64,000 nt of DNA from Paracoccus methylovorus (lineage in GTDB: Bacteria > Pseudomonadota > Alphaproteobacteria > Rhodobacterales > Rhodobacteraceae). Within the stretch, counting starts at the first letter, position 1, and each line of letters begins with the position of its first letter. Below the pieces are notes generated by a model. That model made no database searches. It was not told the DNA's origin and was given only the letters and a program-made list of their open reading frames with translations. The translations under genes were made by a program, and so were the position numbers. The stretch is taken from positions 496,001 to 560,000 of the forward strand of contig NZ_CP070368.1 of the NCBI RefSeq assembly GCF_016919705.1, in the 5' to 3' direction. Shown here one piece after another: positions 11,330 to 39,575 of the stretch.

Positions 11330-11347
11330 ACCTCGACGGAAAACACG

Positions 11348-11378: not shown

Positions 11379-11415
11379 ACATAACTGCTTCAAAGCCGGA
11401 CGGACTAGGGCAAGG

Positions 11416-11974: not shown

Positions 11975-11988
11975 GCGGCAAGCCCCTT

Positions 11989-12123
11989 GGGGGCTTTGCC
12001 CCCGCGCGTTCCGCGCTCCCCCAGGATATTTTGGCACGAAAGAAGCGGAGGGGCCGGCCGTCGCCTGCCTTGTTCTTTTGTGTTCAAATATCCTGCGGGG
12101 GTCCGGGGGCGCAAAGCCCCCGG
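11989..12123. repeat. Dispersed palindromic intergenic repeat, copy 1
   Basis: A 135-base element with nearly symmetric arms: GGGGGCTTTGCCCCC at the left and GGGGGCGCAAAGCCCCC at the right, then inner arms CCCCCAGGATATTT and AAATATCCTGCGGGGG, then CACGAAAGAA and TTCTTTTGTG. The centre is variable. It fills the space between the convergent chorismate mutase and PaaI-like genes. Copy 2 is at 21703-21838. The arms could fold into one long hairpin, so a bidirectional terminator role is plausible. Confidence 0.85.
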
Positions 12124-12158
12124 TCGCGGCCGTAGAATCTAATGCGGAAGTGCGGCTG

Positions 12159-14465: not shown

Positions 14466-14469
14466 GGTC

Positions 14470-15141
14470 TTACTCCTTTGGGGCCAGCAACCGCAGGGCC
14501 GCGCGGATCAGCGTCGCAGTTGGTGCGCCGGGTTCCCGACCGGCGGCTTCGGCCACGGCCGATGCGGCCTCTGACGGAGCATAGCCCAGATTTCCCAAGG
14601 CCGAGAGCGCGTCGGACGTCGTCTGGGCCGAAGAAGGCAGCGGTTTGATTGGCGCCGCCTGCGTCGCGGTTGCTTCGATCACTTCGACATCTGGCAGCGG
14701 GCCGGGATCGACGGTCAGCATGCCCCCCAACGCCATCACGGCGGGGGCCTTGTCCTTGAGCTCCATCACCACGCGTTGTGCCAGTTTCGGCCCGACGCCG
14801 GGGGCTTTTCTCAGCGCGGACCAATCGCCAAGCGCCAGGGCGCGGGACAGCCCGTCCGGTCCCAGCGTGCCCAGAACCGCCAGCGCCACCTTGGCGCCCA
14901 CACCCTGAACCGAGGTCAGCAGCCGGTGCCATTCCTTTTCCAGCAGCGTGGGAAAGCCGAAAAGCTGCAACAGATCCTCTCGCACCAGCAATTCGGTATA
15001 AAGTGCGGTGGCCTGCCCGGCAGGGGGCATGCTGGCGGCGGTGCGTTCGCTGACATGGACGATATAGCCCACGCCGCGCACGTCGATCAGCACATGGTCC
15101 TGCGCCCGGTGCAGGATCACCCCGGCAATACGTCCGATCAT
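14470..15141 (-). CDS. ruvA: Holliday junction DNA-binding subunit RuvA
   Basis: A 223-residue protein beginning MIGRIAGVI, the standard RuvA start. Domain I is an OB-like fold, domain II carries the helix-hairpin-helix motifs [17 protein letters not shown] and [16 protein letters not shown], and the C-terminal domain III ([17 protein letters not shown]) contacts RuvB. It binds four-way junctions as a tetramer. Longer in-frame starts exist upstream but overlap ruvC. Confidence 0.97.
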
Positions 15142-15151
15142 GATCTGTTCC

Positions 15152-15646
15152 TCATGCGGTTGCCTTGATGCGCAGGGCGCGGCCCTGCAGATGATGGGCA
15201 TGACAGATCGCCACGGCCAGCGCATCCGCCGCATCCGGTCCGGCGAATTCGACCCCCGGCAGCATGAAGCGGACCATGTGCTGGACCTGTTGCTTGGCGG
15301 CATGGCCCACGCCGACCACGGTCTTTTTGACGGCGTTCGGGGCGTATTCGCCGATCTCCAGACCTGCTTCGGCCGGGGCCAGCAGGGCGATGCCACGGGC
15401 CTGTCCCAGCTTCAACGTGCCAAGGGCGTCCTTGTTGACGAAGGTCTGCTCGACTGCCGCGGCATCGGGGGTGTGGCTGGCGATGACCGCGCAAAGCCCG
15501 CGATAAAGCGCGGCCAGCCGCGGACCCAGATCGCCCGCCTCGGAATGGACGACGCCGTTGCCCAGATGCCGCAGGCGCGGCCCATCCACCGCGATCACCC
15601 CCCAGCCCATATTCCGCAGACCGGGGTCTATGCCGATGATCTTCAT
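15152..15646 (-). CDS. ruvC: Holliday junction resolvase RuvC
   Basis: A 164-residue endonuclease. All four catalytic acidic residues are in the classical positions: D7 (GIDPG), E66 ([10 protein letters not shown]), D138 and D141 (GPDAADALA). It cuts Holliday junctions symmetrically after RuvAB migration. The start at [10 protein letters not shown] (15646) fits the family; an upstream frame to 15691 adds 15 residues without support. It is the first gene of the leftward ruvC-ruvA-htpX-ruvB run and is divergent from the Mrp operon. Confidence 0.97.
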
Positions 15647-15769
15647 ACCTGTTCCCATTTTTAGGCAAGCGTTAGCACGAAAGGCGAACATCGCCTAGCG
15701 GCTTTGTCATCTGCTTGACATCGCCGGCGCCCATCGGGAACAGAGGGGCACGAAAAGGAACGAGGGACC

Positions 15770-18610
15770 ATGTCGCCAGCACTGATCGCCGTGCTTCCGT
15801 TCATCGGGGCCCTGCTGCCCGGACTGCTGATCCGATCGGGACGCGATATCGCCGCGATGGCCAGCGCCACGGCGACCTTGATCGCCCTGCTGGGACTGTG
15901 CCTGCACATCCCGGCCATCATGGCGGGCGAGGTGGTGACGGCGCGTTTCGCATGGCTGCCCTCGCTGGGGCTGAACGCGCATTTCCGCATCGACGGGCTG
16001 GGCCTTTTGTTCGGCATCCTGATTCTGGGAATTGGTCTGCTGATCATTGCCTATGCGCGCTATTACCTGTCGAGCAAGGATCCGGCAGGTGTGTTCTATA
16101 CCTACCTGATGCTGTTCCAGGGCGCGATGCTGGGAATCGTACTGTCGGACAACATCCTGCTTTTGCTGGTGTTCTGGGAGCTGACCTCGCTAAGCTCGTT
16201 CCTGCTGATCGGCTATTGGAAGCATCTGCCCGAGGGGCGGCAGGGCGCGCGCATGGCGCTGACCGTGACCGGCATGGGCGGGCTTGCCATGATCGCGGGC
16301 ATGCTGATCCTGGGCAATATCGCCGGCAGCTTTGACATCGGCGACATTCTGACCGCGCGCGAGGCGGTGCAGGCCAGCCCTTATTATTTACCGGCGCTGA
16401 TCCTGATCCTGCTGGGGGCATTCACCAAATCGGCGCAGTTCCCGTTTCATTTCTGGCTGCCCCATGCGATGGCCGCGCCGACGCCCGTGTCGGCCTATCT
16501 GCATTCCGCGACCATGGTAAAGGCCGGGCTGTTCCTGATGGCGCGACTGTGGCCGGTGCTGTCGGGCACGCCCGAGTGGTTCTATATCGTCGCCACCACG
16601 GGACTTGTGACCATGGTGCTGGGGGCCTGGATCGCCATGTTCCGCGACGACCTGAAATCGCTGCTGGCCTTTTCCACCGTGTCGCATCTTGGCCTGATCA
16701 CCATGCTTTTGGGTTTTGGCACCGAGGCGGCGGCGGTGGCTGCGGTTTTTCACATCATCAACCACGCGGTGTTCAAGGCGGCGTTGTTCATGACCGCCGG
16801 CATCATCGACCACGAGGCCGGCACGCGTTCGATTGCCCGGCTGGGGGGCCTGCGCCGGCTGATGCCTGTGACATTCGCCATCGGCACCATTGCGGCGCTT
16901 TCCATGGCGGGCATCCCGCCGCTGAACGGTTTTCTGTCAAAGGAACTGATGCTGGAACAGGCGACCCAGGCTGTCTGGCAGGGCAATCCCAGCCTCATCT
17001 TCGTGATGGCGACGCTGGGGGCAGTGTTCTCGGTCTGTTATTCGCTGCGTTTCGTCGGGCAGGTGTTCCTTGGGCCGCAGCGCACGGATTATCCGGAAAA
17101 GCCGCATGATCCCGGCTTTGGCCTGTGGTCCGCCCCGGCGTTTCTGGTGGTGCTGGTGGTTCTGATCGGACTGTTTCCCGACACCATGGCCGGATGGCTG
17201 GTCGAGGTCTCGGCCAGTGCCGTCACCGGCGCGGCCCAGCATCCGCATCTGGCACTGTGGCATGGCGTGACGCCGGCGCTGATGTTGTCCATTGCCGCGC
17301 TGGTCGGTGGGGTGGTGCTGCTGGTGCTGAACCGCCGCCTGCTGGCGCTGCGTGCCGCCATTGCCTGGCCCGAGGCCAAGGTCATTTTCGACGCCATCAC
17401 CCGCGCCTGCACTTGCGCGGCGATGGTCTTTACCGACCGGCTCACCAACGGTTCGATGTCGCGGGCCTTTGCCGCCTTTTCGCTGACCGTGGTGCTTTGC
17501 GGGCTTTGGGCATTCTCGACCGGGGGCTATCAGGGTGCGACCCGGCCGATGCTGCCGGTTCAACCCGTGCCGTTCGTTGGTTGGATGGCATTGATGGTGG
17601 CGACCTGCTGCATGGTGGCATTTCACCGCCACCGCATCCTTGCGCTGGTTCTGGTCGGCATCATCGGGCTGATGGTGTCGGTCAGCTTTATCTATCTGTC
17701 CGCACCCGACCTTGCGCTGACCCAGATCTCGGTCGAGGTGGTTACGGTAGTCCTGCTGTTGCTGGCGCTGAACTTCCTGCCCAAGTTCACCAGAATCGAA
17801 AGCCGCGACCGCAAGCGCGGCGTTGATGCTTTTATCGCCACGGTGACGGGGCTGGGGTTCGGGGCGCTGGCCTATGCGGTCATGCGCAGCGATTTCGCCT
17901 TTCCGTCGATCTCGGACTATATGATCAAGAACAGCCACAAGCTGGGCGGCGGCGACAACGTGGTCAACGTCATTCTGGTCGATTTCCGCGGCTATGACAC
18001 TTTTGGCGAGATCACCGTGTTGGGGATTGCCGCGCTGACCATCTTTGCCCTGACCGAGACGCTGCTGGCGGGGACCAGCGGGATGCGGCTGCGCAACTGG
18101 CTGCACGACAGCCGCCGCGCCGGCGACCGTCATCCACTGATGCTGGTCGTCGTCACGCGGCTGATCCTGCCGGTGTCGCTGGTGGTCGGACTCTATATCT
18201 TCCTGCGCGGCCACAACATGCCGGGCGGGGGGTTTGTCGCCGGGCTGGTGATTTCCGTCGCGCTGGTGTCGCAATACATGGCCTCGGGCTATGCTTGGGC
18301 GCAAGAGCGGCAAAAGATCAACTATCACGCCCTGATCGGCGCCGGGGTCATGGCCGCCGGGCTGACCGGCATCGCGGCATGGTTCGCCGGGCTGCCGTTC
18401 CTGACATCGACCTATGGCTATGTGAAGCTGCCCGGGATCGAGGAATTCGAGCTGGCCTCGGCCATGGGCTTTGATCTGGGCGTGTTCCTGTGCGTGGTCG
18501 GCGCGGTGATGCTGGCGCTGAACTCGCTGTCGCGGATCGCAAGGGTTGCGGGCGAGACGGTGAACCTGCACCCGATGGATATCGACCCCAGCAAGGAGGC
18601 CCGGCCCTGA
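15770..18610 (+). CDS. mrpA: Mrp/Pha Na+(K+)/H+ antiporter subunit A-B fusion
   Basis: A 946-residue polytopic membrane protein. The first 500 residues are NuoL/MrpA-like with the proton-antiporter core, including LLLLVFWELTSLSSFLLIGYW and the block around FPFHFWLPHAMAAPTPVSAYLHSATMVKAG. The C-terminal third carries the MrpA-specific tail and, from about residue 780, a complete MrpB-type domain (VTRLILPVSLVVGLYIFLRGHNMPGGGF). A and B are therefore fused, as in the Pha systems of rhizobia. The complex exchanges cytoplasmic Na+ or K+ for protons. A GAGGGA ribosome site precedes the ATG. Confidence 0.94.
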   Translation: MSPALIAVLPFIGALLPGLLIRSGRDIAAMASATATLIALLGLCLHIPAIMAGEVVTARFAWLPSLGLNAHFRIDGLGLLFGILILGIGLLIIAYARYYLSSKDPAGVFYTYLMLFQGAMLGIVLSDNILLLLVFWELTSLSSFLLIGYWKHLPEGRQGARMALTVTGMGGLAMIAGMLILGNIAGSFDIGDILTAREAVQASPYYLPALILILLGAFTKSAQFPFHFWLPHAMAAPTPVSAYLHSATMVKAGLFLMARLWPVLSGTPEWFYIVATTGLVTMVLGAWIAMFRDDLKSLLAFSTVSHLGLITMLLGFGTEAAAVAAVFHIINHAVFKAALFMTAGIIDHEAGTRSIARLGGLRRLMPVTFAIGTIAALSMAGIPPLNGFLSKELMLEQATQAVWQGNPSLIFVMATLGAVFSVCYSLRFVGQVFLGPQRTDYPEKPHDPGFGLWSAPAFLVVLVVLIGLFPDTMAGWLVEVSASAVTGAAQHPHLALWHGVTPALMLSIAALVGGVVLLVLNRRLLALRAAIAWPEAKVIFDAITRACTCAAMVFTDRLTNGSMSRAFAAFSLTVVLCGLWAFSTGGYQGATRPMLPVQPVPFVGWMALMVATCCMVAFHRHRILALVLVGIIGLMVSVSFIYLSAPDLALTQISVEVVTVVLLLLALNFLPKFTRIESRDRKRGVDAFIATVTGLGFGALAYAVMRSDFAFPSISDYMIKNSHKLGGGDNVVNVILVDFRGYDTFGEITVLGIAALTIFALTETLLAGTSGMRLRNWLHDSRRAGDRHPLMLVVVTRLILPVSLVVGLYIFLRGHNMPGGGFVAGLVISVALVSQYMASGYAWAQERQKINYHALIGAGVMAAGLTGIAAWFAGLPFLTSTYGYVKLPGIEEFELASAMGFDLGVFLCVVGAVMLALNSLSRIARVAGETVNLHPMDIDPSKEARP

Positions 18611-26893: not shown

Positions 26894-27595
26894 TTAGTGC
26901 GTTGCGATCATGGCATAGCCGGGATGAAAGGCCACCCGGACCGAGGTGATGGCGCCCAGATCGTTGAACGTGGTGCGCTGCAGGATCAGCAGCGCGGTGC
27001 CTTGCCGGGTCTCCAGCAGGCGCGCGTCGCTGGCGCTGGCGTTCTCGGCCGAGAAGGCCATGTCCGCATGACGCCAGGGAAAATTCCTGACCAGCCACTC
27101 GTTGGCGGTGATGCGCTGAAAGTCCACCGTCTCGGCGCCGGGTGCGGCGGCGGGGTTGAGCCAGCGATCCTCGGCCTGAAAGGGCTTGTCGTCGCCGTAA
27201 TGGACGGTGCGCAGGTGGATCAGCTCTGCGTCCTCGGGCAGGGCCATGCGCGCGGCGATCTCGGCCGGCGGCGGGCCACGCCTTTGTGCGATGACGCGGT
27301 GGCTGTATTCCATCCCCGCCTGCTCGATCTGTTCGCGCACGATGGGGATGGTCAGGGTCGCCTTGCGCGCCGGGTTCACCGTCACATGGGTCCCGGCGCG
27401 GCGTTTGCGGTCCAGAAGCCCCTCTTCGGCCAGCAGTTGCAGGGCCTTGTTCACCGTCGCGCGGGCGACGCCGAACTCGACGGCCAGGGCCGCTTCGTCC
27501 GGGATGCGGTCGCCCTGCCGCCATTCGCGATCCAGAATGCGGCGGCGCACTTCGCTGGCGATGATCTGCGCTTTGGAGGAGCTTCTTTCGGTCAC
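26894..27595 (-). CDS. hutC: Histidine utilisation repressor HutC (GntR family)
   Basis: A 233-residue transcription factor. The N-terminal winged helix (residues 1-75) contains the GntR signature DEAALAVEFGVARATVNKALQ, and the C-terminal UTRA domain is expected to bind urocanate. HutC represses hut genes until urocanate accumulates. The start is GTG at 27595, overlapping the hutF stop (GTGA); a ribosome site lies within the end of hutF. Twin operator-like repeats in the divergent hutF/hutI space are its probable targets. Confidence 0.93.
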   Translation of the reverse strand: MTERSSSKAQIIASEVRRRILDREWRQGDRIPDEAALAVEFGVARATVNKALQLLAEEGLLDRKRRAGTHVTVNPARKATLTIPIVREQIEQAGMEYSHRVIAQRRGPPPAEIAARMALPEDAELIHLRTVHYGDDKPFQAEDRWLNPAAAPGAETVDFQRITANEWLVRNFPWRHADMAFSAENASASDARLLETRQGTALLILQRTTFNDLGAITSVRVAFHPGYAMIATH

Positions 27596-28953
27596 ATGCG
27601 GTCCTGAAGTCGGGCGATGGTCGCCAGGTAATCGCCTATGATGGCGTCATGGTCCATATGCCTGCCCTCGGTCACGACATGACGGCCGGCGGTCCAGACA
27701 TCGCGCACCAGCCCATCATGGCCGGCAAAGATCAGGCTGTCGATAAGCTGGTCGTCCTTGCGGCCGGCCATGACCGGGTTGCGCAGATCGACCGCAGCCA
27801 GATCGGCCCAAAGACCCGGACGGATCGCCCCGGTTTCGCGCCCCGCCGCCGTGGCGCCCCCGTCAAGCCCGGCCTCGTACAGCACCCGCCCGGTCGAGCG
27901 TCCGGGTTCCGCCAGAATCGCCCGTCCGTTGTCGCGCAGGCGCTGGCTGTATTCCAGCGTGCGAAGCTCTTCGACCAGCGAGATGCGGATGTTGCTGTCC
28001 GAGCCAAAGCCAAGACGGCCCTTGTCCTCGGCCCAGATCGTGCCGTTGAAGGTGCCGTCGCCCAAGGACGATTCGGTGATCGGGCAAAGCCCTGCCACGG
28101 CTCCGGTGGCGGCAAGGCGGCGGGTTTCGTCCTCGGTCATGTGGGTCAGGTGGATCAGTGTCCAGCGTTGGTCGGGGGCAAAGTTCTCAAGCAGCCATTC
28201 CACCGGGCGGCGGCCATAGGCGGCGCTGATTTCCTCGATCTCGGGGATCTGCTCGGCCAGATGCATGTGCAGCGGCCGGCCGGGACGCAGTTCCACGCAG
28301 GCTTGCAGCGCCTCGGGGCTGACGGCGCGCAACGAATGCGGCGCGACACCGATGCCGGCATCGGCCGGCAGGTTGCGCAACGCGGTTTCAGAGGCGTCCA
28401 GCAGGCGCTGGAATTCCTCGGGCGTGGTGCCGAAGCGGTTCTGGCCGGGGGCGAGCGCCCGGCGATCCACGCCGCCGAACTGGTAATGGACGGGCAAAAG
28501 CGTCAGGCCGATGCCGGTGCGGCCGGCGGCGGCCGCGATACGTTCGGCCATCTCGGCGATATTGTCGTAATGCGCGCCGCCGGGGCGGTGGTGCAGATAG
28601 TGGAATTCGACATTGGTGGCATAGCCGGCCTCCAGCATCTCCATCTGCACCAGGGCCGCGATGGATTCGACATCCTCGGGCGTCAGGTGGTCCAGAAAGC
28701 GATACATGATCTGCCGCCAGGTCCAGAATGTATCGCGCGGCTCGGGTCCCTTGGCTTCGGACAGGCCGGCCATCGCGCGCTGAAAGGCATGGCTGTGCAG
28801 GTTCGCCATGGCAGGCAGCAGCAGCCCGACGCGATGGCCCTGCGGCGCGGCACCTTTCTCGACCGTCGCGATTCGGCCCTGATCGACCGTCACGAGCACA
28901 TTTTCTGCCCATCCATCGGGCAACAAGGCCCGCTCTGCCCAGATCACAGTCAT
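27592..28953 (-). CDS. hutF: Formimidoylglutamate deiminase HutF
   Basis: A 453-residue amidohydrolase-fold enzyme that converts N-formimino-L-glutamate to N-formyl-L-glutamate and ammonia. Metal and substrate motifs are LPAMANLHSHAFQRAMAG (about residues 46-63), LHMHLAEQIPEIEE and FGSDSNIRISLVEELR. Its presence, with HutG, shows the five-step histidine pathway rather than the direct formiminoglutamase route. It is the first gene of the leftward hutF-hutC arm and is divergent from hutI. Confidence 0.95.
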   Translation of the reverse strand: MTVIWAERALLPDGWAENVLVTVDQGRIATVEKGAAPQGHRVGLLLPAMANLHSHAFQRAMAGLSEAKGPEPRDTFWTWRQIMYRFLDHLTPEDVESIAALVQMEMLEAGYATNVEFHYLHHRPGGAHYDNIAEMAERIAAAAGRTGIGLTLLPVHYQFGGVDRRALAPGQNRFGTTPEEFQRLLDASETALRNLPADAGIGVAPHSLRAVSPEALQACVELRPGRPLHMHLAEQIPEIEEISAAYGRRPVEWLLENFAPDQRWTLIHLTHMTEDETRRLAATGAVAGLCPITESSLGDGTFNGTIWAEDKGRLGFGSDSNIRISLVEELRTLEYSQRLRDNGRAILAEPGRSTGRVLYEAGLDGGATAAGRETGAIRPGLWADLAAVDLRNPVMAGRKDDQLIDSLIFAGHDGLVRDVWTAGRHVVTEGRHMDHDAIIGDYLATIARLQDRM

Positions 28954-28979
28954 CCTGTCGCCCTTCTTTGCGTCAAAAT

Positions 28980-28994
28980 AAGTTTAGACATAGA
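28980..28994. promoter_or_regulatory. Putative HutC operator, copy 1
   Basis: AAGTTTAGACATAGA, an exact 15-base direct repeat of 29003-29017. Each copy holds an imperfect palindrome GTTTAGAC (6 of 8 positions symmetric), as expected of a GntR dimer site. It lies in an AT-rich patch between the divergent hutF and hutI starts. Confidence 0.7.
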
Positions 28995-29002
28995 GATTAA
29001 TT

Positions 29003-29017
29003 AAGTTTAGACATAGA
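29003..29017. promoter_or_regulatory. Putative HutC operator, copy 2
   Basis: The second exact copy of the 15-base repeat, starting 23 bases (about two helical turns) after the first, so both sites face the same side of the DNA. It ends 32 bases before the hutI start and could control both arms at once. Confidence 0.7.
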
Positions 29018-29049: not shown

Positions 29050-30252
29050 ATGCAGCTTCTTCGCAATGCGCGATTTGTGACGATGAACGAAGAATCAGGT
29101 GGTTATGACCTGATCGAGCAAGGGGCGCTGGTAATCGAAGATGGGCGAATCGCTTGGGTCGGCTCAGAATCGGATCTGCCCACGCGTTACGGAGATGCGA
29201 CGCATCGCGATCTTGGCGGGCGGCTGGTGACGCCGGGCCTGATCGATTGCCATACCCATATCGTCTTTGGCGGTGATCGTGCCCGCGAGTTCGAGATGCG
29301 GCTGGAAGGCGCCTCTTACGAAGAGATCGCGCGGGCGGGTGGCGGCATTCTGTCCAGCGTCCGTGCCACGCGCGAGGCCGATGAAGAGACCTTGCTGGCG
29401 CGCGCCCTGCCACGCGTCGATACGCTGCTGGCCGAGGGCGTGACCACGCTGGAGATCAAGTCGGGCTACGGGCTGGATATCGACAGCGAGTTGAAGATGC
29501 TGCGCGTTGCCCGCCGTATCGGACAGGTTCGCAAGGTTACGGTGCGCACCACCTGGCTGGCCGCCCATGCACTGCCCCCGGAATACAAGGACAACCGCGC
29601 GGGATATATCCGCGAGGTGGTGATTGCCGGAATGGATCGCGGCCATGCCGAGGGGCTGATCGACGCCGTCGACGGTTTCTGCGAAGGCATCGCCTTCTCG
29701 CGCGAGGAAATGGCCGGCATCTTTGATCACGCCGCCGGGCTGGGCCTGCCGGTCAAGCTGCATGCCGAACAGCTTTCCGATCTGGGCGGCGCGGCGATGG
29801 CGGCGCAGCACGGTGCGCTGTCGGCGGACCATTTGGAATATCTGGGGCAGGATGGCGTGGATGCCATGGCTGCCGCCGGCACCGTGGCAGTGCTGCTGCC
29901 GGGTGCCTTTTACACCCTGCGCGAGACGCAATACCCGCCGATGCAGGCGCTGCGCGCGGCCGGCGTGCCGATCGCGCTTGCGACGGACTGCAACCCCGGC
30001 ACCTCGCCGCTGACCTCGCTGCTGTTGACCATGAACATGGGTGCGACGCTGTTTCGCATGACGCCGGCCGAGTGTCTGGCGGGGGTGACCTGCCATGCCG
30101 CCCGAGCGCTGGGACTTGCGGATCGGGGTCGGCTTGCACCCGGAATGCGCGCCGATCTGGCGGTCTGGGACATCCAGCATCCGGCCGAACTGACCTATCG
30201 CATTGGCTTTAATCCTCTTCATGCCCGCATCGTCGGAGGCGACCATGTCTGA
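29050..30252 (+). CDS. hutI: Imidazolonepropionase HutI
   Basis: A 400-residue amidohydrolase that opens the ring of 4-imidazolone-5-propionate to give N-formimino-L-glutamate. Metal-binding signatures are [16 protein letters not shown] (residues about 64-79), [12 protein letters not shown] and [12 protein letters not shown]. It is the first gene of the long rightward hut operon. Its last 8 bases overlap the hutH start. Confidence 0.96.
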
Positions 30253-31786
30253 ACTGATCCTTACCCCCGGAGAAACCACGCTCGCGCAGCTTGAGCGGGT
30301 CTGGCGCGAGGGGCTGGCCGTGCGGCTGGCCGATTCCGCCCGTCCCGGCATCGCCGCATCCGCCGCGCGGATCGAGGCTGCCGCCAATGGCGATGTGCCT
30401 GTCTATGGCGTGAATACCGGGTTTGGCAAACTCGCCTCGATCAAGATCAGGACCGAGGATACGGCGACCCTGCAGCGCAACCTGATCCTGTCGCATTGCT
30501 GCGGCGTGGGTGAGGCGGTCGAGCCCGAGACGGTGCGCCTGATCATGGTGCTGAAGCTGTTGTCTCTGGGGCGCGGTGCCTCGGGCGTGCGTCCCGAAGT
30601 GATTGCGCTGATCGAGGCCATGCTGGCCAAGGGTGTCCTGCCGGTAATCCCCGCGCAGGGTTCTGTGGGCGCGTCCGGCGACCTTGCGCCGCTGGCGCAT
30701 ATGGCCGCCACCATGCTGGGCGAGGGCCGTGCCACCTATGAGGGGCGCGAGATGCCCTCGGCCGAGGCGCTGGCCGCCGCTGGCCTTTCGCCCGTAGTGC
30801 TGGCCGCCAAAGAGGGACTGGCGCTGATCAACGGCACGCAAGTCTCGACCGCTTTTGCGCTGGCGGGGCTGTTCGACGGCTTTGCCTCCGCCCGGGCGGC
30901 GCTGGTCACCTCGTCGCTTTCGACCGACGCCATCATGGGCTCGACTGCGCCCTTCCTTGACGAAATCCATACCCTGCGCGGTCATCGTGGCCAGATCGTG
31001 GCTGCCCGCACCATCCGTGCCTTGATGGATGGCAGCGAAATCCGCGAAAGCCATCGCGAGGGCGATACCCGCGTGCAGGACCCTTATTGCATCCGCTGCC
31101 AGCCTCAGGTGACCGGCGCCTGCATCGACCTGCTGTGGCAGGCCGCCCGCACGCTGGAAATTGAAGCCAATGCCGCCACCGACAACCCGCTGGTGCTGGT
31201 CGGCGCGGACCTCATCGTCTCGGGCGGCAATTTCCATGCCGAGCCGGTGGCCTTTGCTGCCGACCAGATCGCGTTGGCGCTTGCCGAAATGGGCGCGATT
31301 TCCCAGCGCCGCATCGCGCTGATGGTCGATCCGGCGCTGAGCCATGACCTGCCGCCCTTCCTGACCCCCGATCCGGGGTTGAACTCGGGCCTGATGATCG
31401 CCGAGGTCACCAGCGCCGCGCTGATGAGCGAGAACAAGCATCTCGCGACGCCCTGTTCGACCGATTCGACGCCGACCTCGGCCAATCAGGAGGACCACGT
31501 CAGCATGGCCGCCCATGGCGCGCGGCGGCTGAAGCGCATGAACGCCAACCTTGCGCAGATCCTGGGCATCGAGGCGCTTTGCGCCAGCGCCGGGGTCGAG
31601 TTCCGCGCACCCCTGGCGACCTCGGAGCCTTTGCAGGCGGTGATCGCCACGCTGCGCCAGACGGTGCCGGCGCTGGAGCAGGACCGCTATCTTGCCCCCG
31701 ATCTTGTCGAATCGGCCCGGCTGATCCGCGAAGGTGTGCTGGTGGGGGTTGTCGCCGGGCATCTTCTGGACGAGGTGCGCGCGTGA
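30245..31786 (+). CDS. hutH: Histidine ammonia-lyase HutH
   Basis: A 513-residue enzyme that removes ammonia from histidine to form urocanate. The residues A143-S144-G145 ([14 protein letters not shown]) form the MIO electrophilic cofactor. Other family motifs are [11 protein letters not shown] and [17 protein letters not shown]. The start [10 protein letters not shown] at 30245 lies inside the hutI end; an earlier in-frame start at 30203 would overlap hutI by 50 bases. Its stop overlaps the GTG start of hutG. Confidence 0.97.
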
Positions 31787-32574
31787 GTGCTGTCGAAGTT
31801 CACAGTGGCGACAGCCCGGTCATCCTTGGCCTGCCGCACACAGGGACGTATCTGCCTGACGGGATCCGCGCCCGGCTGAACGAGCGTGGCCGGACGCTGG
31901 CCGATACCGACTGGCACATCCATCGGCTTTATGACGGGCTGTTGCCCGGCGCGACCACGGTGCGGGCCACGTTTCACCGCTATGTCATCGACGCCAATCG
32001 CGGGCCCGAGGACGAAAGCCTTTATCCCGGCCAAAACACCACCGGCCTTGTCCCCGTCACCGATTTCGACGGCCAGCCGATCTGGACCAGCGAGCCGACG
32101 GCAGATGAGATCGCCGACCGCAAGGCCCGCTTTCACGCTCCCTATCACGCGGCGCTGGCGGCCGAAATCCAGCGGGTGCGGGCGCGTCATGGCGTGGCGA
32201 TTCTTTACGACTGCCACTCGATCCGCTCAGCGATCCCGTTTCTGTTCGAGGGGGTGTTGCCGGATTTCAATATAGGCACCAACAGCGGCGCCAGTTGCGA
32301 TCCCCGGATCGAGGCGGCGACATTCGAACTTTGCGCCGCTACGGGTCGCAGCCACGTGTTGAACGGACGCTTCAAGGGCGGCTGGACAACGCGGCATTAC
32401 GGCCAGCCCGAACAGGGCGTCCATGCGATCCAGATGGAGCTGGCGCAATCCACCCATCTGGTCAGCGAGGCGCTGCCCTTTGCCTATGACGACGAAAAGG
32501 CCGGACCGCTGCGTCAGACACTTGCGGCGATCCTTGATCGTCTGGCCACCTTGGCACCGGAGTTGCGCGCATGA
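31783..32574 (+). CDS. hutG: N-formylglutamate deformylase HutG
   Basis: A 263-residue amidohydrolase of the FGase family that releases formate and glutamate from N-formyl-L-glutamate, the last hut step. Motifs are [13 protein letters not shown] near the start, [16 protein letters not shown] and [17 protein letters not shown], which hold the likely metal ligands. The GTG at 31783 overlaps the hutH stop (GTGA). Its own stop overlaps the CoA-transferase start as ATGA (32571-32574). Confidence 0.94.
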
Positions 32575-33719
32575 AGCCGCTTTCGGGTATCAAGGTGCTG
32601 GACCTGTCCCGCGTGCTGGCGGGCCCGTATTGCACCGCGCTTCTGGCCGATCTGGGTGCCGAGATCATCAAGCTGGAGCCGCCCTCGGGTGACGATTACC
32701 GCCATATCGGCCCGTTCAAGGATGGCGAAAGCGCGCTTTTCACGCTGAACAACCGCGGCAAGCAAAGTCTTGCGCTGGATCTGAAGGTCCCCGAGGATCT
32801 GGCGCTGGCGAAAGCCATTGCCGCGCGCGTCGATGTTGTGGTCGAGAACTTTCGCCCGGGCGTTGCCGCCCGTCTGGGACTGGGCGCCGAGACATTGCGG
32901 GCGGAAAACCCGCGGCTGATCTATTGCTCGATCTCGGGCTTTGGCCAGCAGGGACCGTTCCGCGACCTGCCCGCCTATGATCTGGTGGTGCAGGCTATGT
33001 CGGGCCTGATGGCCGGCACCGGAGAAGAGGGCGGCGCACCGCTGAAGACCGGCGAGAGCATCGCCGATCTGATCGCGGGCCTGTTTGCAAGCTGGTCGAT
33101 CATGGCCGCGCTGGTGCAAAGAGGCGCAAGCGGCGAGGGCGCCACGCTGGACGTGGCCATGTATGATGCGCTGTTTTCCATGCTGACGACCAGCCACGCG
33201 CTGCATTTCTATGCCGGTCAGTTGCCGCAGCGGGTGGGGAACCGCCATCCGCTTTCGACACCCTTCGGCTGCTTTGCCACGACCGACGGACAGGTGGTGA
33301 TCGCGGTGTTGAACGGCAAGCAATTCGCCGCGCTGGCCACGCTGATCGGCGCGCCCGAGGCTGCCGACGACCCGCGCTTTGCCAGTGACGAAAGCCGCAC
33401 CACGCATGAACCGGCGTTGAAGGCGCTGATCGAGGCGTGGTCGCAACGGCTGACCACCGAGGAAGCCGTTGCGGGGCTTGCCTCGGTCGGGCTGCCCGCT
33501 GCGCCGATCTGGGACATCGCTCAGGCTGCCGGCAACGAGCATGCCGTGATGCGCGGTCTGGTCAGCCGCCTGCCGCATCCGGTGCTGGGTCAGGCCCCGA
33601 CCATTGGTCAGCCGGTGCGCTTTGACGGAGAGAAACCGGTGGCCGAGACCTCGGCCCCGCGCCTTGGCGGCGACCGCGCCGCGATCTTGCGCGAATTTGG
33701 ATTGGAGGAACCCGCATGA
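32571..33719 (+). CDS. Family III CoA-transferase (CaiB/BaiF type) in the hut operon
   Basis: A 382-residue CoA-transferase of the CaiB/BaiF/Frc family. The opening SGIKVLDLSRVLAGPYCTALLADLGAE-type start is typical (residues 5-31), followed by NRGKQSLALDLK and the active-site region PAYDLVVQAMSGLM with the expected catalytic aspartate D137. Such enzymes move CoA between carboxylic acids without ATP. The gene is locked into the hut operon by ATGA overlaps with hutG upstream and the acyl-CoA dehydrogenase downstream. The substrate is unknown; an imidazole carboxylic acid such as imidazolepropionate is my inference. Glutarate or another dicarboxylate is an alternative. Confidence 0.9.
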   Translation: MKPLSGIKVLDLSRVLAGPYCTALLADLGAEIIKLEPPSGDDYRHIGPFKDGESALFTLNNRGKQSLALDLKVPEDLALAKAIAARVDVVVENFRPGVAARLGLGAETLRAENPRLIYCSISGFGQQGPFRDLPAYDLVVQAMSGLMAGTGEEGGAPLKTGESIADLIAGLFASWSIMAALVQRGASGEGATLDVAMYDALFSMLTTSHALHFYAGQLPQRVGNRHPLSTPFGCFATTDGQVVIAVLNGKQFAALATLIGAPEAADDPRFASDESRTTHEPALKALIEAWSQRLTTEEAVAGLASVGLPAAPIWDIAQAAGNEHAVMRGLVSRLPHPVLGQAPTIGQPVRFDGEKPVAETSAPRLGGDRAAILREFGLEEPA

Positions 33720-34870
33720 GCGACGACTGGCACATGCTGGCCGAAGAGGAACGGCTGTTCTGCGACGTGCTCGAACGCATCTGCGCCGAACGGATCGCCC
33801 CGAAGGCGGCTGAGACCGACGAGACCTCGGCCTTTGTTCACGACCAGCTTGCCCTGTTGGGCGAGGCGGGAATGATGGGCGCGAACCTGCCCGAGGAATA
33901 TGGCGGCAGCGGTATTTCGGCGCCGGCGCTTTTGCGGGCGGTGGCGATCGTGGCGGGGGCCTGCGGCTCGACCGGCTCGGCGCTGACGGCGCATTATCTG
34001 GCGACCGACTCGATCCTGCTGGGCGGGTCAGAAGCGCAAAAACAGGAATGGCTGCCCAAGGCGGCCAGTGGCGAGGCGCTGGGGGCTTTTGCCCTGACCG
34101 AGCCGACTGCCGGCTCGGACCCTGCCGATATGAAGACCCGCGCCCGTCGCACCGACAGCGGCTGGCACCTCAAGGGCACGAAATGCTTCATCTCGAATGG
34201 TGGGGTGGCGGATTTCATCGTGGTCTATGCCGTGACCGACCCAGAAAAGGCGCATCGCGGCATCTCGGCCTTTATCCTGCCCAAGGGCACGGCGGGACTG
34301 GAGCCAGGCGCCCCGGAAAAAACCATGGGGCTGAAGGGTGGGCATGTCTTTACCCTGAACCTCGACTGCCACCTGCCGCAAGACGCGCTGCTGGGCGAAG
34401 AGGGCAGGGGCTTCCGCACCGCCATGCAGGTTCTGGACAACGGCCGTATCGAGGTCGCGGCGCAATGCCTGGGCCTTGCCGAGGCGGCGATGACGGCGGC
34501 CATCGCCTATGCCAAGGATCGGGTGATCGGCGGCGAAGCCCTGACCGACCGGCAGGGCATCCGCTGGATGATCGCCGATATGGGTCTGGCTTATCGTCAG
34601 GCGCTGCTTCTGTCGCAGGATGCGGCCCGTCAGCGGCAGGCGGCGCATCATGGCGGCGGGCGTTTCTCGCTTGCCTCCAGCATGGCGAAACTGGCTGCCA
34701 GCGAGGCCGCTGGCCGCATCGCCGACACCGCGCTGCAACTGCACGGTGGCTATGGCTATACCCGCGACTTCCCCATCGAGAGGATCGCCCGCGACCTGCG
34801 CATCATGCGCATCTATGAGGGCTCCTCGGAAATTCAACGCATCATCATTTCCGGCAACATGCTGGCCTGA
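33716..34870 (+). CDS. Acyl-CoA dehydrogenase in the hut operon
   Basis: A 384-residue flavin enzyme of the acyl-CoA dehydrogenase family. Signatures are ALTEPTAGSDPADMKTRA (FAD/substrate region, about residues 126-143), KCFISNGGVADF, and the C-terminal QLHGGYGYTRDFPIER followed by IYEGSSEIQR, where E368 is the expected catalytic base. It would introduce a trans double bond alpha-beta to a thioester. It overlaps the CoA-transferase gene by 4 bases and is followed 12 bases later by hutU, so it is cotranscribed with the histidine pathway. The CaiA/CaiB pair of carnitine metabolism is a precedent for this combination. The true substrate is not known. Confidence 0.92.
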   Translation: MSDDWHMLAEEERLFCDVLERICAERIAPKAAETDETSAFVHDQLALLGEAGMMGANLPEEYGGSGISAPALLRAVAIVAGACGSTGSALTAHYLATDSILLGGSEAQKQEWLPKAASGEALGAFALTEPTAGSDPADMKTRARRTDSGWHLKGTKCFISNGGVADFIVVYAVTDPEKAHRGISAFILPKGTAGLEPGAPEKTMGLKGGHVFTLNLDCHLPQDALLGEEGRGFRTAMQVLDNGRIEVAAQCLGLAEAAMTAAIAYAKDRVIGGEALTDRQGIRWMIADMGLAYRQALLLSQDAARQRQAAHHGGGRFSLASSMAKLAASEAAGRIADTALQLHGGYGYTRDFPIERIARDLRIMRIYEGSSEIQRIIISGNMLA

Positions 34871-34882: not shown

Positions 34883-36547
34883 ATGGACAATCCCCGTCAC
34901 AATACCCGCGACATCTATCCGCCGACCGGCACCGAGATCACCGCGAAAAGCTGGCTGACCGAGGCACCGATGCGGATGCTGATGAACAACCTGCATCCCG
35001 ATGTGGCCGAGAACCCGCATGAGCTGGTGGTCTATGGCGGTATCGGCCGCGCCGCGCGGACCTGGAAGGATTTCGACCTGATCGTCGACAGCCTCAAGAA
35101 GCTGGAAGCGGACGAAACCCTGCTGGTGCAATCGGGCAAGCCGGTGGGCGTCTTCAAGACCCATAAGGACGCACCCCGCGTGCTGATCGCCAACTCGAAC
35201 CTCGTGCCGCATTGGGCGAACTGGGACCATTTCAACGAATTGGATAAGAAGGGTCTGGCGATGTATGGCCAGATGACCGCCGGTTCGTGGATCTATATCG
35301 GCGCTCAGGGCATCGTTCAGGGCACTTATGAAACCTTTGTCGAGGCGGGCCGTCAGCACTATAACGGCGACCTCACGGGCAAATGGGTTCTGACCGGCGG
35401 TCTTGGCGGCATGGGCGGCGCGCAGCCGTTGGCGGCGGTCATGGCCGGCGCCTGCTGCCTTGCCGTTGAATGCGACGAGACCCGCGCCGATTTCCGCATC
35501 CGCACGCGTTATGTCGATGAAAAGACCCATTCGCTGGACGAGGCGCTGGCGATGATCGACCGCTGGACCAAGAATGGCGAAGTGAAATCGGTCGCGCTGA
35601 TCGGCAATGCCGCCGAGGTCTTCCCCGAGCTTTACAAGCGCGGCGTGCGTCCCGATATCGTCACCGACCAGACCTCGGCCCATGACCCGGTCCACGGCTA
35701 TCTGCCGATTGGCTGGACGGTTGCGGAATGGCGTGCGCGTCAGGAAACCGATCCGAAAGCCGTCGAGAAAGCTGCCCGCGCCTCCATGCGCAAGCAGGTC
35801 GAAGCCATGGTCGCCTATTATAATGACGGCGTGCCGACGGTCGATTACGGCAACAACATCCGCCAGATGGCGCTGGAAGAGGGGCTTGAAGACGCCTTTG
35901 CCTTCCCCGGCTTCGTTCCGGCCTATATCCGCCCGCTTTTCTGCCGCGGCATCGGTCCCTTCCGTTGGGCGGCGCTGTCGGGCGACCCGGAGGATATCTA
36001 CAAGACCGACCAGAAGGTGAAAGAGATCGTCAACGATCCGCATCTGCACAACTGGCTGGACATGGCGCGCGAGCGTATCAGTTTCCAGGGTCTGCCGGCG
36101 CGGATCTGCTGGGTCGGGCTGGGCCTTCGTCACAAGCTGGGCCTTGCCTTCAACGAGATGGTGCGCAATGGCGAGCTGAAGGCGCCCATCGTCATCGGCC
36201 GCGACCACCTCGATTCGGGTTCGGTCGCAAGCCCCAACCGCGAGACCGAGGCAATGCAGGACGGATCGGACGCCGTTTCCGACTGGCCGTTGCTGAACGC
36301 GCTGCTCAACACCGCCTCGGGTGCGACCTGGGTGTCGCTGCACCATGGCGGCGGTGTGGGCATGGGCTTTTCGCAGCATTCCGGCATGGTTATCTGCTGT
36401 GACGGGTCCGAGGAGGCCGATGCGCGTCTTGCCCGTGTCCTGTGGAACGATCCGGCAACCGGTGTCATGCGCCATGCTGACGCGGGCTATAAGATCGCAC
36501 TGGACTGCGCGCAGGAGCACGGGTTGAATCTGCCCGGGATTCTCTGA
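34883..36547 (+). CDS. hutU: Urocanate hydratase HutU
   Basis: A 554-residue NAD-dependent enzyme that converts urocanate to 4-imidazolone-5-propionate. The Rossmann-type NAD site [13 protein letters not shown] is near residues 172-184, and other family motifs include [31 protein letters not shown] and [17 protein letters not shown]. The length matches the family. A GGAGAG ribosome site precedes the ATG. It is placed after the CoA-transferase/dehydrogenase pair rather than next to hutH. Confidence 0.98.
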
Positions 36548-36614: not shown

Positions 36615-37433
36615 ATGACTTTCCAGACCACTCTCAAGGCCGCCCTGTTCGGGTTGTCCGCGCTTGCGCTGGGTTCGGCGGCTTCGGCCGATCAACTCGC
36701 CGACGTCAAGGCGGCCGGCAAGATCGTTACCGCGACCGACATGCACTATGCCCCCTTCGACATGCTGAACAACGGCACCTATGAGGGCATGACCAAGGAC
36801 CTGTTCGACGAAGTCAGCAAGGAAATCGGGGTCGAGCCGCTTTATCAGGACATTCCCTGGACCGCCGAACTGCCGGGCCTTGAGGTCAAGAAGTTCGACA
36901 TCGTGATCGCGCCGGTGACCGTCACCCCCGAGCGGCTGGAGCGTTACACCTTCACCCTGCCGATCGCCGATGCCACCGTCTCGCTGGTCAAGGCGGCGGC
37001 GAATGCCGATCTGAACAAGCCCGAGGATATCAAGGGCAAGACCGTCGGCGTGCAGCAAGGGACCGCGCAGTTCCGCCAGCTTCAAGCCTATGGTGAAAGC
37101 CTGGGCGGCGTGAACGTCAAGGAATACGGCACCACCGACGAAGCCTATGCCGATCTGGCGGCCGGCCGTCTGGATGCGGTGGCGGGCTCGCTGCCGAACC
37201 TGACCTATCTGGTGAAGAACCGTCCCGAAACCTTCGCGCTCTTCGAGCCGGCCCAATTCGGTGAGCCGACCTATTTCGCCTGGGTGCTGCGCAAGGATGC
37301 CGACAGTGACAGCTTTGCCCAAGCGATCAACGATGCGCTGCTGAAGATGACCGATGACGGTCGCGTTCAGGCCATCCAAGAAAAATGGCTGGGCAGCTAT
37401 ACCGAACTGCCGCGCGAAGTCCCGGCCAACTAA
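36615..37433 (+). CDS. Polar amino acid ABC transporter, substrate-binding protein
   Basis: A 272-residue family 3 solute-binding protein with a signal peptide (about residues 1-25, ending SAASADQ). Recognisable segments are GKIVTATDMHYAPFDMLNNG, VKKFDIVIAPVTVTPERLE and GKTVGVQQGTAQFRQL. Its position directly after hutU makes histidine, urocanate or a related imidazole compound the likely ligand, which is inference. An AGGAG site precedes the ATG. A very stable hairpin follows the stop. Confidence 0.92.
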   Translation: MTFQTTLKAALFGLSALALGSAASADQLADVKAAGKIVTATDMHYAPFDMLNNGTYEGMTKDLFDEVSKEIGVEPLYQDIPWTAELPGLEVKKFDIVIAPVTVTPERLERYTFTLPIADATVSLVKAAANADLNKPEDIKGKTVGVQQGTAQFRQLQAYGESLGGVNVKEYGTTDEAYADLAAGRLDAVAGSLPNLTYLVKNRPETFALFEPAQFGEPTYFAWVLRKDADSDSFAQAINDALLKMTDDGRVQAIQEKWLGSYTELPREVPAN

Positions 37434-37490: not shown

Positions 37491-38138
37491 ATGTTCTCAA
37501 TCCCGGTCTTCCTACAAAGTTTCGAACCGCTGTTCTGGGCGGCGCGTTATACGCTTCTGATCTCGGTTCTGGGCATTGGGCTGGGGCTGGTGATCGGCAC
37601 GCTGATTTGTGCCGCGCGCATGTCGCCTTATGCGCCCCTGCGCGCCTTTGGCGCGATCTGGGTCAGCTTCCTGCGTGGCGTTCCACTGCTGGTGCAGCTT
37701 TTGGTGTTCTATTACACGCTGCCGGTCATCGGCATCAACGTGCCCGCCATCGTTGCGGCGGTCGTCACGGTGGGCATCTGCGCCAGCGCCTATATCTCGG
37801 AAATCTGGCGCGGGGCGATTGCCGCACTGCCCCGGGGGCAGGCCGAGGCCGCCGTTGCCATCGGCATGACCCCACGCCACGTCTGGACCCGGGTGATCCT
37901 GCCGCAAGCCTTTACCATGTCGCTGCCGGCGCTGGTCAACGAGCTGATCTTGCTGGTGAAAGCCAGCTCTCTGGTCTCGGTCGTGGGCATTCTTGAACTG
38001 ACCCGCGCCAGTCAGGCGCAGGCCGCGACCACCTTCCGCCCGCTGGAAGTCTATATCGCAGCCGCCTGCATCTATCTTGCGATCAACCTCTGCCTTGCGG
38101 CGCTGGGGCGCTATCTTGAACACAGGACGGCCGTCTGA
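37491..38138 (+). CDS. Polar amino acid ABC transporter permease 1
   Basis: A 215-residue permease of the HisM/HisQ family with about five membrane helices. The family EAA-type loop is visible as ALPRGQAEAAVAIGMTPRHVWTRVILPQAF (residues about 119-148). It pairs with the next gene product to form the membrane channel. The stop shares a base with the start of the second permease (TGATG). Confidence 0.93.
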   Translation: MFSIPVFLQSFEPLFWAARYTLLISVLGIGLGLVIGTLICAARMSPYAPLRAFGAIWVSFLRGVPLLVQLLVFYYTLPVIGINVPAIVAAVVTVGICASAYISEIWRGAIAALPRGQAEAAVAIGMTPRHVWTRVILPQAFTMSLPALVNELILLVKASSLVSVVGILELTRASQAQAATTFRPLEVYIAAACIYLAINLCLAALGRYLEHRTAV

Positions 38139-38800
38139 TGGAATGGAGCATCATCGAGCAATACGGCCCCGCCCTGCTGAGGGGCTTTGGCATCACCGTG
38201 CTGTGCTGGATTTTGGGCACAATCTTTGGCATGGCGCTGGGTCTGGTGATCGCGCTGATCCAGCGTTACGGGCCGCGCTGGCTGGGCTGGATCGTCCAAG
38301 CCTATATCGAGATCATCCGCGGCACGCCCTTTCTGGTGCAACTGTTCGTGCTTTACTATGGCGGACCGCTGATCGGGCTAAGGCTGGACGCGCTGCCGGC
38401 GGGGCTTTTGGGCCTGACCATCTATGGCAGCCCCTATTTCGCCGAGATCTTCCGCTCGGGCTTTCGTGCGGTGCCGCATGGCCAGATCGAAGCTGCCCGC
38501 GCCATCGGCATGGCCGAACCCACCATCGTGCGCCGCATCCTGCTGCCCTTGGGCTTGGTTTCGTCGCTGCCCGCGCTGGTCAACTTCTCGATCATCCTGA
38601 CCAAGGAAACGGTGATCCTGTCCATCATCACCGTGCCGGAACTGATGTACCAGGTCAGCCGCATGTCCACCGAGACCTTCCGCTATCTGGAGGCCAATCT
38701 GGTGCTGGCGCTGTTCTTCTGGGCACTGGTCGAGACCATATCGCGCGTCGGCCGCCGGCTTGAGACGCGCATCACCAAACACCTGATCGAAAGGAGCTGA
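38138..38800 (+). CDS. Polar amino acid ABC transporter permease 2
   Basis: A 220-residue HisQ/HisM-family permease. The EAA loop reads [30 protein letters not shown] in the family pattern (residues about 112-141), preceded by [21 protein letters not shown]. It starts at the stop of permease 1 and ends 4 bases before the ATPase start. Confidence 0.93.
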
Positions 38801-38804: not shown

Positions 38805-39575
38805 ATGCAGGCTTCCGCCGTCGATATTCGCAAGGTCAACAAGTACTACGGCCCCTTTCATGCGTTGAAGGACGTGGATCTGGCGATCCCGCCGGGCAAG
38901 GTGACCTGCCTGATCGGGCCCTCCGGCTCGGGCAAGTCCACGCTTTTGCGCTGCATCAACTTTCTCGAGGAATACGATTCCGGCGAGATCCGCATCGACG
39001 GGCAACTCATCGGCTATGAGACGCCCGGCAAGAAGATGTCGGGACGCAAGCTGCGCGAGATGCGGCGCAGCATCGGCATGGTGTTCCAGCAGTTCAACCT
39101 GTGGCCGCACATGACGGCCCGGGAAAACGTGGCCGAAGGGTTGATCCGCGTACGCGGCCTGTCCAAGCCCGAGGCCGACAGCCGTGCGGTCGAGGCGCTG
39201 ACCAAGGTTGGGTTGGCCGACAAGATGGCCAACCACCCTTCGCGCCTGTCGGGCGGCCAGCAGCAGCGCGTCGCCATCGCCCGGGCCATCGCCATGGAAC
39301 CGCGGCTGATGCTGTTCGACGAACCGACCTCTGCCCTTGATCCTGAACTGGTGGGCGAGGTGCTGAACGTGATGAAGGCGCTGGCCAGCGAAGGCATGAC
39401 CATGGTCGTGGTCACGCATGAGATGGGTTTTGCCGCCCATGTCGCCGATCAGGTCGCTTTCATGGAAAAGGGTGAACTGGTGGGCGTGGATACCCCCGAC
39501 CGTATCCTGCACCACCCCGAGGATGCGCGGATCCAGGGCTTCCTGCGCACCTATCACGAACGCAATATTTTCTAA
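38805..39575 (+). CDS. Polar amino acid ABC transporter ATP-binding protein
   Basis: A 256-residue ATPase. Walker [10 protein letters not shown] lies near residues 39-47, the signature [14 protein letters not shown] follows, then Walker [17 protein letters not shown] and the H-loop VVTHEMGFA. It powers the importer made with the two permeases and the binding protein. An AAGGAG ribosome site precedes the ATG. It closes the hut operon. Confidence 0.95.

Follow-up and report, generated by a model that had tools for sequence, protein, structure and literature searches.

A CoA-transferase and acyl-CoA dehydrogenase pair in a Paracoccus histidine utilization operon: a probable entry of imidazolepropionate by way of urocanate

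In the stretch of Paracoccus methylovorus DNA considered here (64,000 nucleotides, NZ_CP070368.1 positions 496,001 to 560,000; the whole stretch is called the window below), genes for a family III (CaiB/BaiF-type) CoA-transferase and an acyl-CoA dehydrogenase are built into the histidine utilization (hut) operon. The locus raises the question of what such a pair contributes to a pathway that has all its enzymes without it. We consider it quite likely that the pair provides a CoA-dependent entry of imidazolepropionate (dihydrourocanate) into the hut pathway by way of urocanate. The two enzyme families are known, and the role in this pathway appears to be new.

The locus and a proposed route to urocanate

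The locus consists of hutC and hutF on the minus strand, followed by hutI, hutH, hutG, the CoA-transferase, the dehydrogenase, hutU and an ABC transporter. The original prediction, made from the letters of the window, placed the pair between hutG and hutU, and the open reading frames (ORFs) and Pfam matches reproduce its coordinates and overlaps exactly: the sequence ATGA occurs at both the hutG/CoA-transferase and the CoA-transferase/dehydrogenase junctions, and 12 bases separate the dehydrogenase from hutU. It also held that the classical pathway needs neither gene to be complete, and this stands, because hutI, hutG, hutU, hutC, hutF and hutH all pass their NCBIfam cut-offs. The same gene order is found, independently annotated, on plasmid pAMI6 of Paracoccus aminophilus, where a 'CoA transferase' and an 'acyl-CoA dehydrogenase family protein' are encoded at the place of the pair. 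The laboratory species Paracoccus denitrificans has the locus as well (L001 is strain DSM 413).

A CoA-transferase and an acyl-CoA dehydrogenase acting together would yield an alpha,beta-unsaturated acid. Urocanate is the sole acid of this kind among the hut intermediates, and the substrate would therefore be imidazolepropionate. In the proposed route, imported imidazolepropionate would be converted by the CoA-transferase to imidazolepropionyl-CoA, from which the dehydrogenase would take two hydrogens to form urocanoyl-CoA, with the electrons passing to electron transfer flavoprotein (ETF) and quinone. The CoA-transferase could then move CoA from urocanoyl-CoA to the next imidazolepropionate, freeing urocanate for HutU. 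Since CoA would turn in a loop, primed for example from succinyl-CoA, no ATP would be needed per turn once priming has occurred. HutC, relieved by urocanate, would control the pair together with the hut genes. We infer the CoA loop and the direction of the reaction; a precedent for the chemistry is the oxidation of phenylpropionyl-CoA by medium-chain acyl-CoA dehydrogenase (MCAD), as described in PMC9889317.

Gene arrangements around the pair

Four ARRANGEMENTS seem to converge on the same product, urocanate. In the first, the pair lies inside hut directly before hutU, as in the window, Paracoccus, Roseovarius, others and some Hyphomicrobiales. The second, in Pseudomonas arcuscaelestis (L045) and one further genome (L197), is a unit of a GntR gene, hutU, the transferase, the dehydrogenase and an NCS1 permease; each of these genomes has another HutU, within a full hut locus in L045 and near hutH homologs in L197.

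The third arrangement is found in Acinetobacter (L046 and L047), where the transferase and dehydrogenase are followed by hutU, hutI, a hutG of the arginase type and a gene for glutamate dehydrogenase; a HutC-like gene lies close by. Histidase is absent from both of these hut operons (that of A. tianfuensis, L047, lies at 8833-18011). The draft genome of A. tianfuensis gave no Lyase_aromatic (PF00221) match anywhere. The single member of that family in L046 lies far from hut, among genes that do not look hut-related; it falls short of the hutH cut-off (386 of 539 bits), and its highest score, again below cut-off, is with a tyrosine ammonia-lyase. The identical histidase query found matches in the remaining six genomes of that search.

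In the fourth arrangement, ten Hyphomicrobiales mini-operons are reduced to a HutC-like repressor (with 62-69% identity to the HutC of the window), the pair and an ABC transporter, with no hut enzymes beside them, and hutU is located elsewhere in all ten genomes. Nine of the ten native hut loci of these genomes (18 kb) contain no close homolog of the transporter binding protein or permeases, the best match being 31% (L149); the tenth lies on a 7 kb contig. If hut enzymes can disappear while the repressor, the pair and the importer stay, the product of the pair should feed the resident hut pathway. In the tree the stripped loci are scattered at several places inside the hut-linked clade. A search of the Hyphomicrobiales mini-operons for remnants of HutU gave nothing convincing (one weak match, L015, E 6e-6); clear scars were seen in Paracoccus alkanivorans alone. 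Paracoccus alkanivorans (L011, 8310-11606) has the operator described below, hutI and hutG fragments, an intact pair and a hutU reduced to its two ends, and it carries an intact hut locus with neither pair nor transporter on another contig; this pair locus looks like the deletion scar of a hut operon, an intermediate form. The same stripped HutC-pair-ABC module is present on a megaplasmid of Sinorhizobium mexicanum (L217, 3967-10270).

The original proposal, in which the pair turns imidazolepropionate into urocanate, is thus favored by the second hutU beside the pair in Pseudomonas, by the Acinetobacter operons that lack histidase, and by the hut-type repressor and operator that have outlasted the hut enzymes. 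The putative operator, TAWGTNTAKACWTA, occurs in the window just twice, 23 bp apart, between hutF and hutI (0.01 occurrences are expected per single-base shuffle). The same motif precedes the CoA-transferase gene in all ten Hyphomicrobiales mini-operons as well as the remnant in P. alkanivorans. In Pseudomonas, HutC represses when urocanate is absent, according to the account in PMC8871633, which suggests that the stripped modules are still regulated in the manner of hut. In its strict form, among the 34 loci scanned, the motif did not occur at the Pseudomonas, Acinetobacter, Brevibacterium or clade C loci, nor at the hut-linked loci L009 and L029. It also matches before two native hut loci that have no pair (L146 and L150), and it therefore marks hut-type control rather than the pair.

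In Brevibacterium, hutU lies within 12 kb at 6 of 11 loci, and in the three loci checked the gene after the dehydrogenase encodes an NCS1 permease. Ten Paracoccus-genus genomes carry a second lineage, separate on the tree, with a dehydrogenase 58-60% identical to that of the window. In six of them (L131-L136) the pair closes off the opposite end of a hut-ABC locus whose hutG and hutU have no pair between them; in the other four it is located elsewhere, with a LysR-type regulator adjoining in the three tested. This lineage probably represents a separate acquisition by the same kind of Paracoccus hut locus.

Among the best 80 of 275 relatives in one scan of a species-level genome collection, the 59 loci with at least 53% identity all have the transferase next door; they come from alphaproteobacteria, Pseudomonas, Acinetobacter, Brevibacterium and one unclassified proteobacterial metagenome-assembled genome (MAG). 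The other 21 loci, at 44-48% identity, lack the transferase and are nearly all labelled deltaproteobacterial. Over all loci analyzed, the transferase stands beside 87 of 108 dehydrogenases. A hut gene lies within 12 kb at 59 of these 87 pair loci (hutU in 57) versus none of the 21 dehydrogenases without a transferase, and these linkage counts are lower bounds with fetched flanks mostly of 7-10 kb, sometimes shorter.

The pair is uncommon: with the dehydrogenase as proxy for the pair, and at the E limits used, it was found in 39 of 125 genus, 9 of 248 family, 5 of 385 class and 9 of 398 phylum genomes, the five matches of the class-wide sample being uninformative for linkage. Its placement beside hutU is not due to chance. 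In the 39 Paracoccus-genus genomes HutU lies less than 100 bp from the dehydrogenase in 27, at up to 6 kb in 6 and elsewhere in 6, one of these last being cut by a contig end. All 39 encode HutU, versus 79 of the 125 overall (hypergeometric 1.4e-10), as do all nine pair-bearing family genomes versus 127 of 248 (0.002), with relatedness ignored in both figures. HutU is likewise present in 22 of 22 pair genomes picked for a pair away from hut, an incomplete hut around the pair or a distant taxon, and in 8 of 8 further pair-bearing genomes (the sets of 39, 9, 22 and 8 overlap). Compared across genomes, the association of the pair with hut genes recurs in several lineages, among both alpha- and gammaproteobacteria and in Brevibacterium, and its lineage adjoins hutU in Paracoccus, Roseovarius, Mesorhizobium-type genomes, Pseudomonas and Acinetobacter.

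The pair is also found on plasmids. At E 1e-110 the dehydrogenase has matches in 6 of 72,556 plasmid records, and one of the plasmid-borne loci (NC_022044, L219) is a whole hut operon with the pair. In Paracoccus cavernae (L034, 3165-15874) four genes (hutC, hutF and those for the dehydrogenase and the binding protein) are each matched in two or more fragments, probably as a result of sequencing errors.

Family, substrate and direction of the two enzymes

The CoA-transferase matches CoA_transf_3 (PF02515) with 416 bits over residues 4-368, which is its whole length. It reaches no NCBIfam equivalog cut-off; the nearest models by score are the succinate-glutarate (302 of 750 bits), oxalate and mesaconate transferases. 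Asp166 is near-invariant among the 87 pair members and aligns with an Asp in the four PDB relatives shown; we take this to be the catalytic position. Distances among the transferases follow those among the dehydrogenases (r 0.90 over 38 thinned loci), an agreement that shared species history also favors.

The AlphaFold model of the dehydrogenase has a mean pLDDT of 96, and Foldseek finds it closest to the short-chain acyl-CoA dehydrogenase (SCAD) fold (rat SCAD 1jqi, TM 0.94, 40% identity), a match that supports the fold only and is silent on the substrate. Glu368, present in 87 of 87 pair members, occupies the catalytic Glu site of the short- and medium-chain acyl-CoA dehydrogenases. The relation to CaiB and CaiA suggested in the original prediction holds at the level of the two superfamilies, but the proteins are not CaiA and CaiB themselves: both lie far below the NCBIfam equivalog cut-offs, with 113 of 413 bits for the transferase against CaiB and 152 of 540 bits for the dehydrogenase against CaiA.

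One alternative voiced at the outset was that the pair serves glutarate or another acid of glutamate metabolism, as a glutaryl-CoA dehydrogenase (GCDH) with its CoA-transferase. A CoA-transferase and dehydrogenase under a LysR-type regulator form a known glutarate layout, LysR genes lie beside some distant relatives, and the highest sub-threshold match of the transferase is, as noted, the succinate-glutarate enzyme. However, the source genome has two GCDH homologs elsewhere (E 1e-150 or better to GCDH structures), and the hut dehydrogenase falls outside them. In a tree of 94 rows the pair-associated dehydrogenases form one 75-row clade (support 95/94) with the GCDH homologs outside it; some paralog branches are very long and their exact placement is unsure, and the conclusions use the clade of pair enzymes. 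The dehydrogenase scores 154-188 bits against chains named glutaryl-CoA dehydrogenase versus 273 against rat SCAD, and stays under the cut-off of the Desulfococcus-type GCDH model (209 of 470 bits). At the site of the GCDH Arg, which presumably binds the gamma-carboxylate, the 87 pair members have a small residue (Ala 74, Val 10, Ser 2, Gly 1), and both GCDH homologs of the source genome have Arg. Judged by clade, scores and residues, the dehydrogenase is not a glutaryl-CoA dehydrogenase, and the glutarate alternative seems extremely improbable. A grouping with the isovaleryl-CoA dehydrogenases finds no more favor. Those enzymes carry their catalytic Glu in helix G rather than at the C-terminal position; here the helix G site is Gly243, with Glu at 368 instead.

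Two acidic residues mark the dehydrogenases of the pair in the alignment. Asp98 is found in 87 of 87, and 30 other dehydrogenases (21 of the deltaproteobacterial type and nine paralogs from the source genome) have Asp in none and Glu in three. Position 246 is Glu in 85 and Asp in 2 of the 87, is acidic in none of the 30, and is Gly in most of them. In the AlphaFold model Asp98 lies in helix 84-103 and Glu246 in helix 232-268, and, going by acyl-CoA dehydrogenase structures, those long helices are expected to frame the acyl pocket. We propose that Asp98 and Glu246 bind the imidazole ring of the substrate.

The pair might instead run backwards, with urocanoyl-CoA reduced to imidazolepropionyl-CoA as an electron sink in the manner of caffeyl-CoA reductase. 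The highest NCBIfam match of the dehydrogenase is the acryloyl-CoA reductase AcrC (355 of 640 bits, cut-off not reached), and nitrate respiration occurs in Paracoccus, which we count on the same side. However, several ordinary paralogs of the source genome also match acryloyl-CoA reductase best, and both Brevibacterium and Acinetobacter live aerobically. Transport genes and hutU accompany the pair, which in Acinetobacter occurs in a hut operon without histidase. The aryl-acryloyl couple of caffeyl-CoA reductase is near -30 mV versus +90 mV for ubiquinone, as given in PMC5861303, which favors the oxidation of such aryl couples by quinone. Operation in the reductive direction is, in our judgment, very unlikely.

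It is also unlikely that the enzymes act on a modified imidazole acid (imidazolepropionate with an N-methyl or 2-thio group, or cis-urocanate) whose product becomes urocanate at a later step. Some relatives do lie beside Rieske oxygenases, which would suit other imidazole compounds. In the window and in Pseudomonas and Acinetobacter, the HutU proteins encoded beside the pair are nevertheless canonical, scoring below the cut-offs for both thiourocanate hydratase and S-methyl thiourocanate hydratase, and between hutI and the ABC genes the window has no enzyme gene beyond hut and the pair.

Several observations weigh against imidazolepropionate as the substrate and urocanate as the product. The surroundings fetched are free of hut genes for 28 of the 87 pair loci; these include the 10 stripped loci and 5 from Brevibacterium, and several of the others have LysR regulators and varied neighbors (aldehyde dehydrogenase, a xanthine-type permease, a PhoD-like gene, a glutamate symporter). 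On plasmid p2 of Gemmobacter fulvus (L218, 887-8143) the pair is accompanied by a Rieske oxygenase, a 2Fe-2S protein, a HisC-like aminotransferase and a GlcD-like FAD oxidase, a cluster that is maybe for imidazolelactate or other imidazole acids and so also speaks for a modified substrate. Both Acinetobacter genomes are drafts, the co-occurrence figures are inflated by shared ancestry, and the three comparison dehydrogenases with Glu at position 98 slightly weaken that residue as a mark. A pair-specific ABC transporter in Paracoccus was considered and rejected, the transporter being present in 10 of 16 fetched hut loci that lack the pair. The hut-less loci, together with the short-chain acyl-CoA dehydrogenase fold, would also suit a passenger pair that serves short-chain acyl-CoA metabolism in general and has nothing to do with imidazole acids. 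This seems highly improbable given the separate associations with hutU, the retention of the operator and the acidic residues that are rare or absent in the other dehydrogenases compared.

Conversion of imidazolepropionate to urocanate can be extended to a broader model, which on balance we favor. The pair would be a mobile, separately selectable module running the CoA loop from imidazolepropionate to urocanate. It would have joined hut more than once, would repeatedly have shed redundant hut enzymes while keeping HutC control, and in some Acinetobacter would have replaced histidase to give an imidazolepropionate/urocanate pathway, with Asp98 and Glu246 as the signature of imidazole recognition.

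Three other loci with related genes are recorded here in their own right. In L142 (2968-15911) a Rieske oxygenase, the pair and two NtaA/DmoA-type monooxygenases lie between hutH and hutU, perhaps as a larger cluster for imidazole compounds. A HutU paralog in L104 (1501-3108, Hyphomicrobiales) exceeds the thiourocanate hydratase cut-off (1036 versus 930 bits), which suggests ergothioneine breakdown in that genome. L109 (539-4467) encodes a divergent homolog of HutU, accompanied by GntR and HutI homologs of its own; it reaches the hutU cut-off and neither of the thiourocanate-type cut-offs.

Table 1. Genes, putative operator copies and selected codons of the hut locus (positions in the window)
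Feature	Position	Strand	Evidence and remarks
hutC, GntR/UTRA repressor	26894..27595	-	TIGR02018, 251 bits (cut-off 220)
hutF, formimidoylglutamate deiminase	27592..28953	-	TIGR02022, 542 bits (cut-off 413)
Putative HutC operator, copy 1, TAAGTTTAGACATA	28979..28992	+	motif search of window
Putative HutC operator, copy 2	29002..29015	+	motif search; 23 bp downstream of copy 1
hutI, imidazolonepropionase	29050..30252	+	TIGR01224, 466 bits (cut-off 298)
hutH, histidine ammonia-lyase	30245..31786	+	TIGR01225, 689 bits (cut-off 539); start picked by analyst
hutG, N-formylglutamate deformylase	31795..32574	+	TIGR02017, 373 bits (cut-off 279); start uncertain
Family III (CaiB/BaiF-type) CoA-transferase, 382 aa	32571..33719	+	PF02515, 416 bits; proposed urocanoyl-CoA:imidazolepropionate CoA-transferase
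Codon, CoA-transferase Asp166	33066..33068	+	proposed catalytic Asp; near-invariant; Asp in four PDB relatives shown
Acyl-CoA dehydrogenase, 384 aa	33716..34870	+	Pfam N, M and C domains; proposed imidazolepropionyl-CoA dehydrogenase
Codon, dehydrogenase Asp98	34007..34009	+	proposed imidazole contact; 87/87 pair members; helix 84-103
Codon, dehydrogenase Glu246	34451..34453	+	proposed imidazole contact; Glu 85/87, Asp 2/87; helix 232-268
Codon, dehydrogenase Glu368	34817..34819	+	catalytic base; 87/87 pair members
hutU, canonical urocanate hydratase	34883..36547	+	TIGR01228, 945 bits (cut-off 375); under both thiourocanate-type cut-offs
Polar amino acid type ABC substrate-binding protein	36615..37433	+	TIGR01096, 142 bits, under cut-off 256; stays beside pair in mini-operons
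ABC permease 1	37491..38138	+	ORF; annotated homolog in P. aminophilus
ABC permease 2	38138..38800	+	ORF; annotated homolog in P. aminophilus
ABC ATPase	38805..39575	+	ORF; annotated homolog in P. aminophilus

Relation to known systems

Imidazolepropionate is a bacterial waste product tied to type 2 diabetes, and UrdA explains its formation. Pseudomonas (now Comamonas) testosteroni reportedly degrades imidazolylpropionate, going by the title of a 1973 work by Coote and Hassall, and is said to do so through urocanate; we know of no genes for this degradation. Searches of open-licence papers for its breakdown and for hut regulons turned up no genes for degrading imidazolepropionate, and the novelty of the pathway role is therefore provisional. 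The HutC passage of a regulon survey of 196 proteobacterial genomes covers transporters and a few other genes, with no CoA-transferase or acyl-CoA dehydrogenase (PMC5343134). A 2026 preprint on imidazolepropionate treats its production in the portion available (PMC13320830), and in a 2025 review no passage on bacterial degradation of the compound was found (PMC11872695). If the proposal is correct, the pair would supply genes for the aerobic degradation of a diabetes-associated microbial metabolite, a two-gene marker for the bacteria that consume it, enzymes for its assay or removal, and a clear way to test how a long-established pathway acquires an additional point of entry.

The pair shares features with several known systems. 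Like SCAD and butyryl-CoA dehydrogenase, to which its fold is closest, the dehydrogenase has its catalytic Glu at the same place; unlike them, it has Asp98, Glu246, a partner transferase and a hut context. Glutaryl-CoA dehydrogenase with glutarate CoA-transferase belongs to the same two superfamilies and presumably has a similar gene pairing, and differs in its carboxylate-binding Arg, its clade and the hut context of the present pair. CaiA and CaiB have the superfamilies and the idea of CoA cycling in common with the pair, which is far below both of their equivalog cut-offs.

UrdA belongs to an unrelated family and has no CoA step, and like the proposed route it interconverts urocanate and imidazolepropionate. 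It is a flavoenzyme that reduces urocanate, as described in PMC10882135. For transport, the closest known counterparts are HutTu and other Pseudomonas hut transporters, which the NCS1 permease beside the pair may resemble in substrate; HutTu is a urocanate uptake gene inside hut (PMC8871633), and COG1457 permeases are described within HutC regulons (PMC5343134).

The gene pairing is also consistent with the CoA-loop systems for aryl acids of the CarA/CarC type, their chemistry being a proposal here. The caffeyl-CoA system of Acetobacterium woodii likewise recycles CoA by means of a transferase. CarC of that organism is, like the dehydrogenase proposed here, a member of the acyl-CoA dehydrogenase family acting on a 3-arylpropionyl-CoA/arylacryloyl-CoA couple. 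CarC is, however, reductive and electron-bifurcating and has its own ETF, according to the account in PMC5861303, whereas the present pair is proposed to be oxidative and has no ETF gene in its operon.

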